Shown here: positions 10,869-17,177 of the stretch, in pieces
How positions within the stretch are numbered: the stretch's first letter is position 1
Layout of the letters: the number at the start of each line of letters is the position of its first letter
Assembly: GCA_017992475.1 (NCBI GenBank)
Contig: JAGOOO010000003.1
Coordinates: forward strand, 62,001 to 126,000
Reading direction: 5' to 3'
Length of the DNA: 64,000 nt
From: Caldisericia bacterium
Lineage (GTDB): Bacteria > Caldisericota > Caldisericia > JAAYUI01
Translations under genes and position numbers: made by a program
Notes under the pieces: model-generated
What the model was told of the DNA's origin: nothing
Database searches by the model: none
The model's input: the letters and a program-made list of their open reading frames with translations, nothing else

Positions 10869-10907
10869 AACAACCCCGCGTTTTTTATGATGGCGCGGGG
10901 TTGTTTG
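10869..10907. terminator. Bidirectional intrinsic terminator (argS / radical SAM operon)
   Basis: A perfect 12-bp stem, AACAACCCCGCG (10869-10880) with CGCGGGGTTGTT (10894-10905), lies between two convergent transcription units. The plus side is followed by a T-rich stretch and the minus side is followed by a weaker one. Confidence 0.75.
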
Positions 10908-10926: not shown

Positions 10927-12303
10927 TCAGGCCTTTTGTGCGGCCTTCTCTTCTTCCTGCTTTTTCTGTGCTTCTTTTTTCTTCTCCGCGTAGGTTATCT
11001 TGAGTAGGTCTTTTATGTTGTATTTGTAGCTTGCGCACTTCTCAAGCTTCCTGTCGGTCTGGGTGAAATCTGTTGTCATCGGGAGCCATTTCGCGGGGCA
11101 ATTGGCAAGGCAGCATGGCATGAATACGCAACCATCGCACTCCTCCTTGTCGAATGGGTTGAAAAGCACCCATTTGAAATAGTTTTCCCCGTTGATGGCC
11201 TTCATGTCCATTATGTTGCCATATGATTCCTTCTCCTGGCCAACCTGGTTCCAGCACCTGACAAGAGACCCGTCCGGGCAAATGACTGTTGAAGTTGGCC
11301 TTGTGGCACAGCACGATGAAGACATCGAGCGGACGTACCAGGAGAAACCGAGGTTTTTGTCTATGGCCGACTGGTAGAACTTTGTCAGGACCTCGGCATA
11401 TTCCTGTACATTCAGACACATGTTCTCCACAGAGGCACATGCCTTGGTTGCCTCGGAGGTAAGGAGTCCTGGGTAAATGGAAATGTTCTTCTTGCCAGCA
11501 AGTATTTTGATGCTGTCAAAAAGTGGCGTGAAGTCTTTTGCTATCTCTTTATCCACGTTTACTCTGACAGCAATCGGAATAAATTCTGATGCCTCAAGGA
11601 CATTCTGAACGATCCTGTCGAATGTTGGCCCTCCCCCACGAAGCACCCTGCGCTGGTTGTGGATCTCTGGTGGCCCGTCGATTGTTGCCTGAATGTGGGT
11701 GACATTTCTTTCTGCAAGTGCTTTTGCCTTTTCCTTGTCCAAAAGCCAGCAATTGCTGATCATGTGCGATGAGTACTTGACTTTCCTTTCCTTGCAGAGA
11801 TTTATGAAGAAGTCCGAAAGCTCGATGACCGTGTCGTATCCCAGGAGGGGCTCGCCGCCAAACCATGTAATGGCAAAGTACTCAAGGAAAGAGCTTTTGA
11901 ATGCCTCAGTCGTCATTTCCTTTATTTTGTCGACGACCTCCCTGGACATGCTGATAGGTTTTTGTTCCTCAAAACAGTAGGTGCATTTGAAGTTGCAGGC
12001 CATTGTGGGGAGCAGGGTATAGCCCAGTGAATTTGGACTGTATGTTGACTGGAGAAATTTGAGTTTTACCCTGTCCTGTTCGTTGAGCGTGTCCTCGACA
12101 AGCATCCCGCCTTTTTTGAACTGCTCGTAGGATTCCTTTTCCTTGTCTGTAAAATTGTTTGGATCAATTTTATTTGATGCACATTTCATAAAAAATTTGT
12201 ATGTTTCCTTGTCCAGCTCTGCAAAGCCGCTCGCAAAAGCATTATAGCAAAGCTTTGCCCCATTATCGCCTTCCATCCAGATGTTGTACATTGATTCTTT
12301 CAT
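10927..12303 (-). CDS. Radical SAM/SPASM protein, likely peptide maturase
   Basis: The 458-residue enzyme has an N-terminal region of the peptide-maturase type (YNAFASGFAELD), a radical SAM core with CNFKCTYC giving the [4Fe-4S] Cys 103, 107 and 110, and GGEP (149-152) for SAM binding. A C-terminal SPASM domain with many Cys (about 331, 332, 342, 350, 389, 392, 397, 398, 402, 423) would hold auxiliary Fe-S clusters. The last 20 residues are a Lys/Glu/Ala-rich tail. Such enzymes usually modify ribosomal peptides or protein side chains. It lies directly downstream, on the same strand, of four Cys-rich small proteins, the obvious candidate substrates. The class is certain; the reaction (thioether or other crosslink) is inference. 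Confidence 0.9.
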   Translation of the reverse strand: MKESMYNIWMEGDNGAKLCYNAFASGFAELDKETYKFFMKCASNKIDPNNFTDKEKESYEQFKKGGMLVEDTLNEQDRVKLKFLQSTYSPNSLGYTLLPTMACNFKCTYCFEEQKPISMSREVVDKIKEMTTEAFKSSFLEYFAITWFGGEPLLGYDTVIELSDFFINLCKERKVKYSSHMISNCWLLDKEKAKALAERNVTHIQATIDGPPEIHNQRRVLRGGGPTFDRIVQNVLEASEFIPIAVRVNVDKEIAKDFTPLFDSIKILAGKKNISIYPGLLTSEATKACASVENMCLNVQEYAEVLTKFYQSAIDKNLGFSWYVRSMSSSCCATRPTSTVICPDGSLVRCWNQVGQEKESYGNIMDMKAINGENYFKWVLFNPFDKEECDGCVFMPCCLANCPAKWLPMTTDFTQTDRKLEKCASYKYNIKDLLKITYAEKKKEAQKKQEEEKAAQKA

Positions 12304-12329
12304 TGAGATCGCTCCTTTTGTTTTTGAAC

Positions 12330-12353
12330 AAGGGGGATCGAATGATCCCCCTT
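12330..12353. promoter_or_regulatory. Stem-loop between last Cys-rich gene and radical SAM gene
   Basis: AAGGGGGATC and GATCCCCCTT form a perfect 10-bp stem with a 4-nt loop, in the 61-nt gap before the enzyme gene. No long T-run follows in the direction of transcription, so it looks more like a partial attenuator or an mRNA stabiliser than a full terminator. Either would give more precursor than enzyme. Confidence 0.55.
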
Positions 12354-12364
12354 GGAATTATTTT

Positions 12365-12700
12365 CTAACTCAACCTTGCAGGGCAGGGAAGATCATGTTG
12401 ATAGCAGGTCTTGCCGTCAGTGCAGATCCAACCTTTTGTCGGGCAGTATGTTGAGCAGTATGTGGGGCAGTATGTTGGACATGTATTGTCTGTCTGGTAG
12501 CATTGACCCCAGTAATCCTTGCAGCTTGCACCAGTGCAGGTGTAACCACCTGCAACACAAGTCAGCACTTCACAGTGTACGGCATTGCAGCTGTAGGTTT
12601 CAGCACCCGCACAGTCCTTGTAAAAGCACTGTCCTGGCCCATCTGCTTGACAGTATGGCGCAATATCGCCAATTGATCCGGGTTTTACGATCCAGTTCAT
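12365..12700 (-). CDS. Cys-rich putative modified-peptide precursor, family A copy 1
   Basis: The 111-residue product has 16 Cys and begins MNWIVKPGS, a short Cys-free leader-like segment with no Sec signal. Cys 74, 78, 82 and 86 form a strict period-four block (CPTYCPTYCSTYC), followed by GWICTDGKTC. An AGGAGG site lies 8 nt before the ATG. It is about 70% identical by eye to the family A protein at 13159-13479 and shares the M-x-W-I-V-x-P start with family B. It is the last of four such genes before the radical SAM enzyme. It could instead be a disulfide-rich structural protein, but the lack of an export signal and the neighbouring enzyme favour a precursor. Confidence 0.8.
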   Translation of the reverse strand: MNWIVKPGSIGDIAPYCQADGPGQCFYKDCAGAETYSCNAVHCEVLTCVAGGYTCTGASCKDYWGQCYQTDNTCPTYCPTYCSTYCPTKGWICTDGKTCYQHDLPCPARLS

Positions 12701-12720
12701 TTGTTTGCCTCCTTTTTATC

Positions 12721-13035
12721 TCACGGATAGAATGACGGACAATCCTGCAGTGTTGGGCAAGTGGTTTCCCAGCCTGCAGGGCACACTTGATTGGTGTAGC
12801 AACCAGTGTAGCCCTCAGGTGGAAGACATTCATGGTCTGGACAATATGCAGTACAAGTTTTTGAACAAGCCCAGTCACATGGTCCCCCGACATCATCAAA
12901 ACCGCTTACACATGTATTTCCACTGCAATATGCTGCTGGTGGGTTGCATTGGTTTTGAACACACTTGTGGTGATTGCACTGTTGCTGCGTACAATTGATT
13001 ACAAACTCATCCATTGGATTCACAATCCATTTCAT
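12721..13035 (-). CDS. Cys-rich putative modified-peptide precursor, family B copy 1
   Basis: This 104-residue protein has 15 Cys and starts MKWIVNPMDEF. I chose the ATG at 13033-13035 because AGGGG precedes it at good distance; the in-frame upstream extension has no conserved counterpart. It carries CTQQQCNHHKC, FDDVGGPC and AYCPDHEC, nearly unchanged in the second family B copy. Copies diverge most between residues 85 and 104. No signal peptide is visible. It lies 20 nt upstream of the family A copy 1 gene, so the two are probably translated from one message. Confidence 0.8.
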   Translation of the reverse strand: MKWIVNPMDEFVINCTQQQCNHHKCVQNQCNPPAAYCSGNTCVSGFDDVGGPCDWACSKTCTAYCPDHECLPPEGYTGCYTNQVCPAGWETTCPTLQDCPSFYP

Positions 13036-13158
13036 TTCGTTTGTTCCCCTTTCTTGGATATTTCTAGATATTCTGATCAAATTTACTAAAGTTACTTCTC
13101 ATTTGTTTGAACGGGGGTGGTGATTTGCCCACCGCATTTTTAGTTACTTTTTCCTAGA

Positions 13159-13479
13159 TCAGGGAAGGCTATAGATTGTGCAGGTTTTACCATCAGTACA
13201 AATCCATCCTTCTGTTGGGCAGTATGCCGGGCAGTATGCCGGGCAGTATGTTGGGCATCCAAGATCGGTTTGGAAGCATTGCCCCCAATAATCTTTGCAA
13301 GTGGCAACACTACACGTATATCCACCTGCAACACAGCTGAGAACTTCGCAATGAACGCCCTTACAGTTGTAGCTCTCGGCTCCTGCACAGTCTTTGTAAT
13401 TGCATTGTGATGCTTCGTCTGATATGCAATATGGTATTACATTGTCGATTGGTGATCCGGGTTTTATTATCCAATTCAT
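13159..13479 (-). CDS. Cys-rich putative modified-peptide precursor, family A copy 2
   Basis: A 106-residue product with 15 Cys, starting MNWIIKPGS. The period-four block recurs at Cys 75, 79, 83 and 87 (CPTYCPAYCPAYC) and is again followed by GWICTDGKTC. Also conserved with copy 1 are YKDCAGAE, VHCEVL, CVAGGYTC and CKDYWGQC. GGAGG precedes the ATG. It is 15 nt downstream of family B copy 2. The 123-nt gap after it (13036-13158) is the largest between the small genes and holds only a weak GGTGG/CCACC hairpin. Confidence 0.8.
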   Translation of the reverse strand: MNWIIKPGSPIDNVIPYCISDEASQCNYKDCAGAESYNCKGVHCEVLSCVAGGYTCSVATCKDYWGQCFQTDLGCPTYCPAYCPAYCPTEGWICTDGKTCTIYSLP

Positions 13480-13494
13480 TTATTTACCTCCTTT

Positions 13495-13830
13495 TCATAT
13501 TGTTTTATTAGGGCATGGGAAGTATGTTGGGCAAGTATCTAGTGTTGGACAATTAGATTCCCAACCCGCAGGACAAATTGCATTGGCAGAACAAGTGTTG
13601 TATGATGATGGATCTGGGAAACACTCATGGTCTGGACAGTATGCATTGCATACTTTTGAGCAAATCCATTCGCATGGTCCCCCAACATCATCAAATTCAT
13701 TTGTGCATGTATTTAGAGTACAATATGCTCCTGGTGGGTTGCATTGGTTTTGAACACACTTGTGGTGGTTGCACTGTTGCTGCGTACAAGTGATTACAAA
13801 CTCATCCATCGGATTCACAATCCATTTCAT
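13495..13830 (-). CDS. Cys-rich putative modified-peptide precursor, family B copy 2
   Basis: A 111-residue product with 16 Cys, starting MKWIVNPMDEF. It shares CTQQQCNHHKCVQNQCNPP, FDDVGGPC and AYCPDHEC with copy 1 but has a different, slightly longer C-terminus ending FPCPNKTI. Its ATG overlaps the stop codon of the upstream TolB-like gene (ATGA), and the ribosome site AAGGAG lies inside that gene, so the two are translationally coupled. This coupling ties the exported propeller protein to the Cys-rich cluster. Confidence 0.8.
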   Translation of the reverse strand: MKWIVNPMDEFVITCTQQQCNHHKCVQNQCNPPGAYCTLNTCTNEFDDVGGPCEWICSKVCNAYCPDHECFPDPSSYNTCSANAICPAGWESNCPTLDTCPTYFPCPNKTI

Positions 13831-15161
13831 TTCGTATATTCTCCTTTCTTGATTTGTATGGCATAGATATCCCAGTCAAACTCGTCGAGTTCGGCCCAGG
13901 TCACAAGATTTTTGTATATTCTTGTCCAGTGTCTGACTTCTGCCTTAATTCTTCTGGTTCCAGGGACAAGGATTTCTGGTGTTTTGTCTTCACCATAATT
14001 AAACAGCATGAGATCGAAATCTTCCGGATTTTCAGGTGTGTTTTGCGTCCACACCACATTGTTTCCGTAAGAACAACCTCCGGCTATGTTCAACCTGCCA
14101 AAGACTTTTCCAGAGATCTCAAAGACACTATTTTTTGCCTGGTCAAAACCCAAAAGCTGGGTGTATCTTTTTTTGGAAAAACCAGAAACGAGCATGACAG
14201 GAAAGTTTGAGTCAGGACAATTCATCAGATCGATAGACATGACCTCATCAGGTACTGGATTCATAACATAAAATTTTTCGCCTGTGGCGAGGTTGTAGCT
14301 TTTTATTCTGTTTATTGCCCTGTCACCCTGGTAGGATTGTTCCTGATAGTAGACAAAATCCCCCTGTATGACTGCAAGGTATTGATGGTCAGGGCCATCA
14401 TCGATTGGCACCACCTTGTCCTTTTCAATATCATACATCATGAGGTCAAGATTGCTTGAGTTTCTCACCTCATAGACGACCACTTTTCCATTTGTGACCG
14501 GATACGCTCTCTGCAGGCTATTTTTGAATTTATGAATTCTTTTTGGTTTTTCCCCGAGGCGTGTCAGGTCACAAAAGTAAATACCAAGGTCTTTGGACAT
14601 ATAGTCAGGCCATGTGGCGATGCCTCCCGAAACGTTGACATAGGCACGGTATCCGGCAGGCAAGTCGACGGTTTTTTGTTCTCCGGCCCTGATGTCTGCA
14701 AACCAGATGGAATTTTTCTTCTTTGTTTGCATGAGCTGCTGATCAAGCCATACGACATAGTTTTCTGAAGCATAGATGAAATTGTCGGTTGAAAAGGAAG
14801 GAAGCTGGTCCCCTCCTCCTCCCAGTTGACGTTTTTCCCCTGTTTCCAGATCCATGCAGAAAACCTTGCTTTGGCCATTCTCAGAACCTATCCAGACAAC
14901 CTTGCCATCAAGCGGGAAGGGCGTATAGGAAGTTTCGTCTACCGAAACGGCTACTTGTATTTCCCCATCATGCTCCCCGCAAACACCAAAGCGCGCTGTG
15001 CCACCAAAATAAATTGGAAGGCAAAGCGCGACTACCATTAAAACAGCGATTTTTTTATATGCGTTAATGGCAATCCTCCTTTCTTTTTGCCAGACTTTGC
15101 TGGCCCCCAATGGCTCCTCAAGATCGACATTGGGGATTATCAAAAGAAAGGCAAACAGCAA
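13827..15161 (-). CDS. Exported TolB-like beta-propeller protein, first gene of Cys-rich operon
   Basis: The protein has blades with the TolB/periplasmic propeller pattern (VVWIGSENGQSKVFCMDLETGE; LVTWAELDEFDWDIYAIQI) after an N-terminal signal-like hydrophobic stretch. The start is uncertain. The frame opens at TTG 15161 with no ribosome site. An AAAGGAGG lies 6 nt before an in-frame ATT at 15066-15068, which would give a clean signal peptide starting M-NAYKKIAVLMVV. The next internal ATG would leave no basic residues. The stop overlaps the start of the first Cys-rich gene (ATGA). A related propeller is at 49600-50706. Binding partner and role are unknown; it may contact the exported product. 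Confidence 0.75.
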   Translation of the reverse strand: MLFAFLLIIPNVDLEEPLGASKVWQKERRIAINAYKKIAVLMVVALCLPIYFGGTARFGVCGEHDGEIQVAVSVDETSYTPFPLDGKVVWIGSENGQSKVFCMDLETGEKRQLGGGGDQLPSFSTDNFIYASENYVVWLDQQLMQTKKKNSIWFADIRAGEQKTVDLPAGYRAYVNVSGGIATWPDYMSKDLGIYFCDLTRLGEKPKRIHKFKNSLQRAYPVTNGKVVVYEVRNSSNLDLMMYDIEKDKVVPIDDGPDHQYLAVIQGDFVYYQEQSYQGDRAINRIKSYNLATGEKFYVMNPVPDEVMSIDLMNCPDSNFPVMLVSGFSKKRYTQLLGFDQAKNSVFEISGKVFGRLNIAGGCSYGNNVVWTQNTPENPEDFDLMLFNYGEDKTPEILVPGTRRIKAEVRHWTRIYKNLVTWAELDEFDWDIYAIQIKKGEYTK

Positions 15162-15331: not shown

Positions 15332-15781
15332 TTACTTGATTTCAGAAGTGCAGTGCGGGCATTTTGTGGCTTTTATAGGGATGAGGGTAAAGCAGAATGG
15401 GCATTCTTTTTGGGTTGGTGCTGGTTTTTCAGCCGGCTTCTCTTTCCTGAGCCTGTTGATCATCTTGACCACGATGAAGATTGAGAAAGATATTATCAGG
15501 AAAGATATGAGCGCATTTATAAAGAGCCCGAAGTTCCATGTCACGGCGCCAGCAGCTTTTGCCTCTGCAAGTGAAGCATATGGCGGAGGGGTCTTGCCTG
15601 ATGAAATAAGAAGATACATGTTTGAAAAATCTATCCTGCCAAGTAAAAAGCCTATAGGAGGCATGATTATGTCGTTTACAAGTGAATTGACAATTGCACC
15701 AAATGCCGCTCCTATTACGACGCCGACTGCCAGATCAATGACGTTTCCCTTGAGTGCGAATTCTTTAAATTCTTTGAACAT
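15332..15781 (-). CDS. mscL: Large-conductance mechanosensitive channel with C-terminal zinc ribbon
   Basis: MscL opens under membrane tension to release solutes during osmotic downshock. The N-terminus ([20 protein letters not shown]) and first pore helix ([19 protein letters not shown]) are typical, and a second helix lies at about residues 83-105. The 149 residues exceed the usual ~135 because a CPFC-x11-CPHC zinc ribbon replaces the simple C-terminal helix. GGAGG precedes the ATG. It stands alone on the minus strand, downstream of a gene of unknown function. Confidence 0.95.
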
Positions 15782-15833: not shown

Positions 15834-16886
15834 TTATGTTTTCAGACAATCTTTTGAATATTTCAATATCAGCAACGACCTGAAAAGGAAGTCATTTCTG
15901 AGCATTGATTTGGTTTTTCCTGTTTCCAGCGATGAGCCAACATATGCTGACCAGGTAGTGAAGGAATGGCCACTCATGACTGATGAAATCCAGTCATCGG
16001 TTTGGTCAAAACTTAAAATGAGTTTTTGGGTTTGCTTTTCAAGATACTTGATCCTTCTTGCTAGCCCACACTTTGCAAGGTGTTCCATTCTCTGGAACCA
16101 GCAGAATGCAGAATCTTTGTCCAAACTGTCAAAATTTCTGACGAGTCCATCAGTAATCGACCAAGCTGGTGAATAGGCAGTGTTTTTATGAAGCTCATAT
16201 ATTTTTGATTGTGGAGAGTCCAGCAACAAGAGGTTTTCTGATGACTGGACCAGCATTGAAAGGTTCTCTTCATTCCTCCAAGAAGATGTGTTTGCAAGGA
16301 TGAAAAGGTCATAGTAACAGGGGCAACAAAAGCCTTTCCTGAAAACAAATTTACCCCTCCATTGTTCTGTAACCTCATTCCAGTTGGAAATGTTCTTTGC
16401 CATTCTAAATGATTCGAGCGAAGTTTTGATCTGCTTCTTGACGACTTTTTCGTTCTCTTTTCCACATTGCACTAGCACCCTGGCAATTATCATTTCGCTT
16501 GCACTTGTTTTTCCACCATCGCTTTCATCAGCCAAATTGCTCATCTCAAGAGGGTTTTTAAGGGCCATCTCTTTTGCATATCTGGCCGCTTTTTCTATTG
16601 CCGGATGGCTGTATTCGATGCCCTTCTCAATGAGAAATTTTGTTGCGACCTCTAGTGCGTTGAAGCGATTGTTTGAGGGTGCGGTATGCAACCTATCTCC
16701 AAAACCGCCACTTTCTCCCTGGAGTGACAAAACCTTTGTAATAAGTTTTTCTGAAAGAATTTCTTCCTGGAGTCTTTTCATTTCGGCATCATGCCCTTTG
16801 CCCAAAATATCTCTTCTTGTTCTATATTTTATTGAAGGGCCGGCATTTTTGAGCAGAAATTCAATTTTCTCATCAATACCTTTCAT
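15834..16886 (-). CDS. Helical-repeat protein of unknown function (terpene-cyclase-like fold possible)
   Basis: The 350-residue soluble protein begins MKGIDEKIEFLLKNAGPSIKYRTRRDIL, with no signal peptide. I chose this ATG (16884-16886) because GGAGG lies 6 nt upstream; the frame extends 11 codons further without a site. It is mostly helical with motifs such as LQGESGGFGDRLH and CCPCYYDLF. The spacing of helices and the 'SIKYR..RD' opening remind me of proteins with prenyltransferase/squalene-oxidase-like alpha/alpha repeats, but catalytic Asp motifs are not evident. Several Cys occur in one short loop (FCCPCYY). Function unknown. Confidence 0.65.
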   Translation of the reverse strand: MKGIDEKIEFLLKNAGPSIKYRTRRDILGKGHDAEMKRLQEEILSEKLITKVLSLQGESGGFGDRLHTAPSNNRFNALEVATKFLIEKGIEYSHPAIEKAARYAKEMALKNPLEMSNLADESDGGKTSASEMIIARVLVQCGKENEKVVKKQIKTSLESFRMAKNISNWNEVTEQWRGKFVFRKGFCCPCYYDLFILANTSSWRNEENLSMLVQSSENLLLLDSPQSKIYELHKNTAYSPAWSITDGLVRNFDSLDKDSAFCWFQRMEHLAKCGLARRIKYLEKQTQKLILSFDQTDDWISSVMSGHSFTTWSAYVGSSLETGKTKSMLRNDFLFRSLLILKYSKDCLKT

Positions 16887-17177
16887 TTTTGCCTCCTGAA
16901 ACAACAATTTACTTGCCATTTATATACTAATTTTTAAGTAAATGCATTATTTATACATTTGTTTACATTTGAAATATAGCATCAGAAACAGTTATCATCC
17001 TCTTTTTAAAGTGGTAATAATAGCCAGAACTAATAAACTGCTGTGTTCCATTTCAAATGATTAAACCAAACTTTCTGAAATTGAAACAAACCACTATAAT
17101 TGCAGAATTTTTTATACTAAATAACTTTTTACTATGCCCTATCGTATTATGAGGCATGAAAGGAAGGAGGCACTAAG
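16887..17177. other. AT-rich divergent intergenic region
   Basis: This 291-nt gap separates two divergent genes and is strongly AT-rich. TATAAT (17095-17100) and TATTAT (17145-17150) are possible -10 boxes for the plus-strand secreted protein gene, but neither has a convincing -35 at proper distance. GGAGG near 17165 is the ribosome site of that gene. I see no RNA gene. Confidence 0.4.

Follow-up and report, generated by a model that had tools for sequence, protein, structure and literature searches.

What is the role of four small, cysteine-rich proteins that are encoded in front of a single radical S-adenosylmethionine (SAM) enzyme in a little-known anaerobic digester bacterium? The question is raised by a locus in a 64,000-nucleotide stretch (hereafter, the window) of contig JAGOOO010000003.1, which belongs to a Caldisericota metagenome-assembled genome (MAG), and in which a preliminary description based on the sequence had seen a candidate new system for ribosomally synthesized and post-translationally modified peptides (RiPPs). 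Comparative evidence makes it very probable that the proteins, which form two families (A and B), serve as substrates for the SPASM-type enzyme, because they carry a leader shared across phyla, the enzyme model has a domain resembling the RiPP recognition element (RRE), enzyme and proteins strictly co-occur, the Cys are invariant, and a slowly evolving enzyme is combined with rapidly evolving substrates. We consider it likely that the locus encodes a RiPP-type system in which a radical SAM/SPASM enzyme acts on unusually long substrates bearing the leader of the Clo7bot/CefA group. The proposal of a new system is not supported, since NCBI-annotated Clo7bot peptides carry the same leader and the best enzyme models, although below their cut-offs, are those of the Clo7bot, TIGR04463 and CefB maturases.

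Two families of cysteine-rich proteins

The arrangement first described, with a SPASM radical SAM gene following four Cys-rich genes on one strand, was confirmed together with its coordinates, as were, for all four proteins, the length of 104-111 residues, the 15-16 Cys and the common start M-[NK]-W-I-[VI]-[KN]-P. The six genes of the operon lie on the minus strand in the order propeller, B2, A2, B1, A1 and radical SAM enzyme (Table 1). The four proteins are two paralogous families arranged as a duplicated B-A unit (A1 and A2 are 71% identical, B1 and B2 74%, and A versus B about 33%). MAGs of Caldisericia/Caldisericales are the close relatives in which the same locus was found. In three sister species of the genus there is one B-A pair each in the same gene order, with an enzyme 97-98% and a propeller 87-95% identical, and the extra B2-A2 pair is found only in the genome studied here.

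Within each family 15 Cys columns are invariant, whereas only 51 of the 90 other columns in A and 49 of 89 in B are; these include W and Y residues. The Cys are never closer than 4 positions, which departs from random placement (p = 1.5e-5 for A and 3.5e-5 for B); they are spaced 4-11 residues apart with no repeat, and neither CxC nor CxxC occurs in any of the proteins. The reading frames are intact and dN/dS between species is about 0.06-0.29 for the precursors. By these values, the intact frames and the invariant Cys columns, A and B are real genes and not chance open reading frames (ORFs). Their dN (0.09-0.22) is about tenfold that of the enzyme (0.009-0.02), as is usual where one enzyme serves diversifying substrates. 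No signal peptide was detected in A or B, as had been stated, the best 12-residue hydropathy being 0.7 as compared with 2.9 for the propeller. The families matched no NCBIfam peptide model, the Clo7bot peptide model TIGR04333 found nothing at the locus even when E<=10 was allowed, and no solved relatives of A or B were found.

An A/B profile search of 386 genomes yielded matches in four, which are the four of the genus, and all of them carry the enzyme; a fifth match (E 0.005) contained four internal stops and is due to chance. There were no A or B proteins in the other 50 Caldisericota genomes, so that homologues lacking the enzyme, which would have spoken against a substrate role, did not appear. 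A scan of contigs brought up the close relatives and three distant radical SAM loci that lack the leader, and nothing further. A mobile or viral origin was rejected, since no relative of A or B was present in viral contigs and the plasmid homologues of the enzyme were all below 60% identity.

The high Cys content could also be that of ordinary disulfide or metal-binding (metallothionein-like) proteins next to an unrelated radical SAM gene, the more so as the activity of the enzyme is here a prediction. We regard this as highly improbable and reject the metallothionein-like reading: the odd conserved number of Cys (15) and the lack of CxC and CxxC argue against both metallothionein-like and all-disulfide proteins, the leader is common to the annotated Clo7bot and CefA peptides, A and B never occur without the enzyme in the genomes surveyed, no signal peptide directs them to an oxidising compartment, and the operon is conserved together with a hairpin.

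Apart from this, the first 102 nucleotides of B1 (12934-13035) and B2 (13729-13830) are 96% identical, with 2 synonymous differences, and the remainder of the two genes is much less similar. Both a gene conversion of the leader region and a constraint combined with a diversifying core are possible explanations. The same stretch of B2 shows no synonymous difference from its orthologue in genome G041.

The enzyme and its relatives

The maturase displays the canonical Cx3Cx2C radical SAM motif (CNFKCTYC) and a full set of SPASM Cys (Cx12Gx4C, followed by CDGCVFMPCCLANC, which corresponds to Cx2Cx5Cx3C, and a last C). Its best NCBIfam models were TIGR04334, the Clo7bot maturase CtpM (292 bits, cut-off 600), TIGR04463 (281 bits, cut-off 525) and the CefB model NF038107 (216 bits, cut-off 600), and it scored lower with those of PapB (112 bits, cut-off 340), the SCIFF maturase TIGR03974 (78 bits, cut-off 425) and QhpD TIGR03906 (59 bits, cut-off 453). 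On this sequence evidence the enzyme is of the same superfamily group as the Clo7bot, TIGR04463 and CefB maturases and belongs to none of these families. It is 30% identical to an annotated Clo7bot maturase over 457 aligned positions and 33% to a TIGR04463 maturase, and in a quick tree of 35 homologues, in which many forks were weak, the genus formed a separate deep lineage.

The AlphaFold2 model (predicted local distance difference test, pLDDT, 88.7) begins with three strands (E7-11, E17-21 and E26-30) and three helices (H32-42, H53-64 and H75-87). This βββααα order is the one that defines the RRE (PMC12710340), and the N-terminal part of the model is thus a predicted RRE-like domain. The best Foldseek matches, covering nearly the whole chain at E about 1e-20, with 2e-20 for the top one, were the structures 5why/5wgg of the SCIFF maturase CteB, and SuiB and TigE were also among the best. 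CteB and PapB, the enzyme of freyrasin, have the same architecture of RRE, radical SAM and SPASM domains, and this is the best structural match. Nevertheless, the comparison with the curated SCIFF model that had been suggested sets the locus apart from SCIFF, the SCIFF peptide having six Cys in 45 residues as against 15-16 in about 105 here.

Radical SAM enzymes of RiPP pathways perform several chemistries (PMC8326336), and A and B contain invariant W and Y residues, so that the enzyme could act on them by C-C or aryl cross-links (cyclophane or streptide-like) or by epimerisation and leave the Cys free for metal. This seems to us improbable in view of the closest models and structures, which are those of Cys-targeting maturases (Clo7bot, CefB, PapB and CteB), and of the 15 Cys columns that are invariant in both families while other positions vary.

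The same genome has another, highly divergent radical SAM gene of the SPASM type (G000:C33:52963-54141) with counterparts in two sister species and with no leader-motif ORFs near it.

The leader across phyla

The Clo7bot peptides annotated by NCBI on a Paraclostridium plasmid start with MKFIKKPARKFEEGYC (MKFIKKP...), and the annotated CefA of Methylomagnum, a protein of 679 residues with 28 Cys, starts MQYLVQP. The starts of the precursors, MNWI[VI]KP and MKWIVNP, conform to the Clo7bot leader M-x-[FY]-I-x-x-P with W replacing F/Y. In two other Caldisericota, distant homologues of the enzyme lie beside short Cys-rich ORFs that begin MIFLVKP, MKFISKP, MHFISQP, MNFVNLP and MEFINKP (GTG starts written M). 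The pattern was generalised as a rule (M-x-[FWY]-[ILV]-x-x-P with at least 4 Cys and at least 8% Cys) on a first set of 30 enzyme loci from the survey of 386 genomes, and then applied unchanged to a second set of 30 loci from another phylum. The first set contained 22 such ORFs in 12 of the loci, compared with 0.2 in shuffled sequences and a single one in 182 kb of control DNA, and 9 of the 22 belong to the genus itself. In the second set there were 34 ORFs in 23 of the 30 loci against 0.0 in shuffles, although many of these loci come from related genomes, so that they cannot be counted as 30 separate events, and genome G102 contributes to both sets. Outside the genus, the ORFs had 38-75 residues and 4-11 Cys, and those of the genus are the longest of the 51. 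The rule includes the ΦxxP element, a common RRE recognition sequence (as YxxP or LxxP; PMC12710340). Since the annotated Clo7bot and CefA peptides bear this signature, it is the leader of a known group of families.

With Clo7bot (maturase TIGR04334, peptide TIGR04333) the locus thus has in common the leader and a layout in which several precursors rich in Cys are encoded, on one strand, upstream of a single SPASM enzyme. However, the annotated Clo7bot precursors are of 41-53 residues with 4-7 Cys and are found beside ABC transporters, whereas a propeller takes the place of the transporter here and the cut-offs are not reached. CefA and CefB (Cys-every-fifth; NF038108 and NF038107), with TIGR04463, resemble the locus in their long precursors and in the Cys placed at intervals with neither CxC nor CxxC. 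In contrast, the Cys of the Methylomagnum CefA are exactly 5 or 10 residues apart in a C-terminal repeat that follows a long other part, and the 4-11 spacing of A and B does not conform to a Cys at every fifth residue. Precursors that contain Cys and are longer than A and B were already on record with CefA, and this, like the 248-residue ORF described below, also speaks against a new system. Judged by sequence, the locus is a long, 15-Cys form of the Clo7bot/CefA leader group, with precursors of about twice the usual length. A literature search retrieved no paper naming Clo7bot, none relevant on Caldisericota RiPPs, and no characterised product of this leader group.

Some other loci are also noteworthy. 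In the locus of genome G141, an ORF of 248 residues with 27 Cys in CefA-like spacing and no leader motif at its start (L073:4602-5348) adjoins a TIGR04463-like enzyme with the best score of the survey (462 bits). Two loci (L077 and L081) combine a radical SAM gene and leader-motif Cys-rich ORFs with CALCSEDPxFCG repeats, flanked by two similar proteins of 306-312 residues that look ATP-grasp-like by eye, and may represent a radical SAM and ATP-grasp hybrid. In the phylum of G102, SPASM maturases, often in tandem, are accompanied by up to 4 different leader-motif Cys-rich precursors per locus (L071, L099, L106 and L116), which makes a rich unannotated set of precursors.

The propeller and the question of export

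The first gene of the operon had been described as that of an exported propeller coupled to the first Cys-rich gene, and both points were borne out: the N-terminus is hydrophobic, and the TGA of the propeller gene overlaps the ATG of B2 (ATGA), an overlap kept in the three sister species. The AlphaFold2 model was all-beta (pLDDT 78), with TolB and prolyl-oligopeptidase-type propellers as Foldseek matches. The absence of an adjacent peptidase-ABC exporter was also verified at the locus, and the search of the four genomes of the genus, which was made for the peptidase C39 domain and did not extend to other proteases or exporters, found none. At the loci of the two other Caldisericota (L019 and L020), and at L071 and L072, there are nearby genes for a putative ABC-2-type ATPase and permease, read from the sequence and not from a domain search. 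Besides the length of its precursors, the locus is distinguished by the number of Cys (15-16), by the lack of a C39 peptidase and of an exporter next to it, and by its partnership with a secreted, co-translated propeller.

In quinohaemoprotein amine dehydrogenase (QHNDH), a Cys-rich small protein that has no signal peptide is cross-linked by a SPASM enzyme and is partnered with a propeller. By analogy with the gamma subunit QhpC, on which QhpD acts (PMC8326336), A and B could be cross-linked subunits of a secreted propeller complex and not released peptides. Proteins of about 105 residues that are rich in Cys, have no signal peptide and share an operon with a SPASM enzyme and a propeller fit this proposal, and so do the ATGA coupling in all four species and the lack of the C39 peptidase or adjacent exporter that would be expected for a released peptide. 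Membership in QHNDH itself was rejected, because the enzyme is far below the TIGR03906 cut-off, the propeller is of a different, TolB/prolyl-oligopeptidase-like type with QHNDH outside its 50 best Foldseek matches, and no gene for a cytochrome-type or dihaem subunit was present among the neighbours examined. As the Clo7bot-type leader also points to a peptide group, we consider the subunit hypothesis unlikely, though less so than the alternatives discussed above.

Several observations weigh against a RiPP-type system of the Clo7bot/CefA group. The enzyme reaches no NCBIfam cut-off and A and B match no peptide model; the leader motif was generalised after the first loci had been seen, even if it was left unchanged for the second set; and among the first 30 enzyme loci, more than half, chiefly those of weaker homologues, lack such an ORF within 1.5 kb. 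With no C39 peptidase and no exporter adjoining the locus, a cleaved and secreted peptide is not explained. Finally, the link to the propeller is confined to one genus, and paralogues of the propeller are present elsewhere in these genomes with no such Cys-rich neighbours, so that it looks like a recruited partner.

Gene features and flanking regions

Table 1. Features of the operon, with positions in the window
Feature	Position	Strand	Remarks
Radical SAM/SPASM peptide maturase	10927..12303	-	458 aa; predicted N-terminal RRE-like domain, about residues 1-90
Precursor A1	12365..12700	-	111 aa, 16 Cys; leader MNWIVKP; Shine-Dalgarno AAAAAGGAGG; orthologues in three sister species
Precursor B1	12721..13035	-	104 aa, 15 Cys; leader MKWIVNP; with an orthologue in each of the three sister species
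Precursor A2	13159..13479	-	106 aa, 15 Cys; leader MNWIIKP; additional copy seen in this genome only; 71% identical to A1
Precursor B2	13495..13830	-	111 aa, 16 Cys; leader MKWIVNP; additional copy seen in this genome only
Secreted beta-propeller protein	13827..15068 (start approximate)	-	about 413 aa; ATGA-coupled to first B gene
Stem-loop, last precursor/maturase gap	12329..12354	-	CAAGGGGGATC-ATTC-GATCCCCCTTG; probable stoichiometry/processing element
Stem-loop 3' of maturase gene	10869..10905	-	12 bp stem AACAACCCCGCG; probable operon end

Shine-Dalgarno sites precede the precursor genes, and the start of B1 is at 13035, the TTG at 13080 given by the ORF caller being too early. The hairpin before the maturase gene (10-11 bp) is found at the same place in the four species with three different stem sequences (z-scores -4.7, -4.0, -3.5 and -5.2), and may keep the enzyme in check or shield the precursor mRNA. 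The one after the maturase gene is also kept in all four and has no long T-run. Rfam gave no match in the 10-17 kb part of the window.

At the beginning of the propeller ORF (15060-15085) there is no ATG, GTG or TTG where expected; AAAGGAGG is followed by an in-frame ATT leading into INAYKKIAVLMVVALCLPIYFGG, identical in the four species, which could be an ATT start codon. The operon is flanked by purine and house-keeping genes and by mscL. The latter (15335-15781), upstream of the propeller gene on the same strand, encodes an MscL with a zinc-ribbon-like C-terminal tail (CPFC...CPHC). Further on (15837-16919) is a gene for a 361-residue protein with no Pfam match, which is present in one sister locus (L018) and apparently absent at that place in the other two (L016 and L017).

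Proposed mechanism and implications

If A and B are substrates of the maturase, its RRE-like domain would bind their first residues through the ΦxxP element of the leader. By means of the radical derived from SAM and the two iron-sulphur clusters of the SPASM domain, many of the 15-16 regularly spaced Cys would then be joined to side chains or backbone carbons close by, most likely by thioethers of the ranthi- or sactipeptide type, with each Cys engaged on an auxiliary cluster, bonded to a neighbouring residue, and the cycle repeated along the chain. Such an iterative cross-linking of a 105-residue substrate is plausible in view of the tolerance of PapB for wide spacing and for distance from the leader (PMC9413430). 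The hairpin before the maturase gene probably sets an excess of substrate over enzyme; A and B, which are always together, probably form a two-component product, and the co-translated, secreted propeller is probably an extracytoplasmic partner with a role in binding, assembly or immunity. More tentatively, A and B may be proteins of about 105 residues and not leader-cleaved natural products, each with up to 15 thioethers, that join in a covalently locked structure of two components, which the propeller keeps outside the cell; we find this rather doubtful.

Should this be true, few proteins proposed so far would be as heavily cross-linked by radical SAM chemistry as the stapled A and B. The leader signature ties the uncharacterised Clo7bot and CefA families to a long-precursor family in Caldisericota and to many unannotated Cys-rich ORFs of other phyla, and offers a simple rule to find substrates of this radical SAM clade. 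With one enzyme, two substrates and a strong conservation, the Caldisericota pair is a clean test case for asking whether SPASM enzymes can cross-link 15 Cys in 105 residues, and whether the products may be structural rather than antimicrobials or signals.

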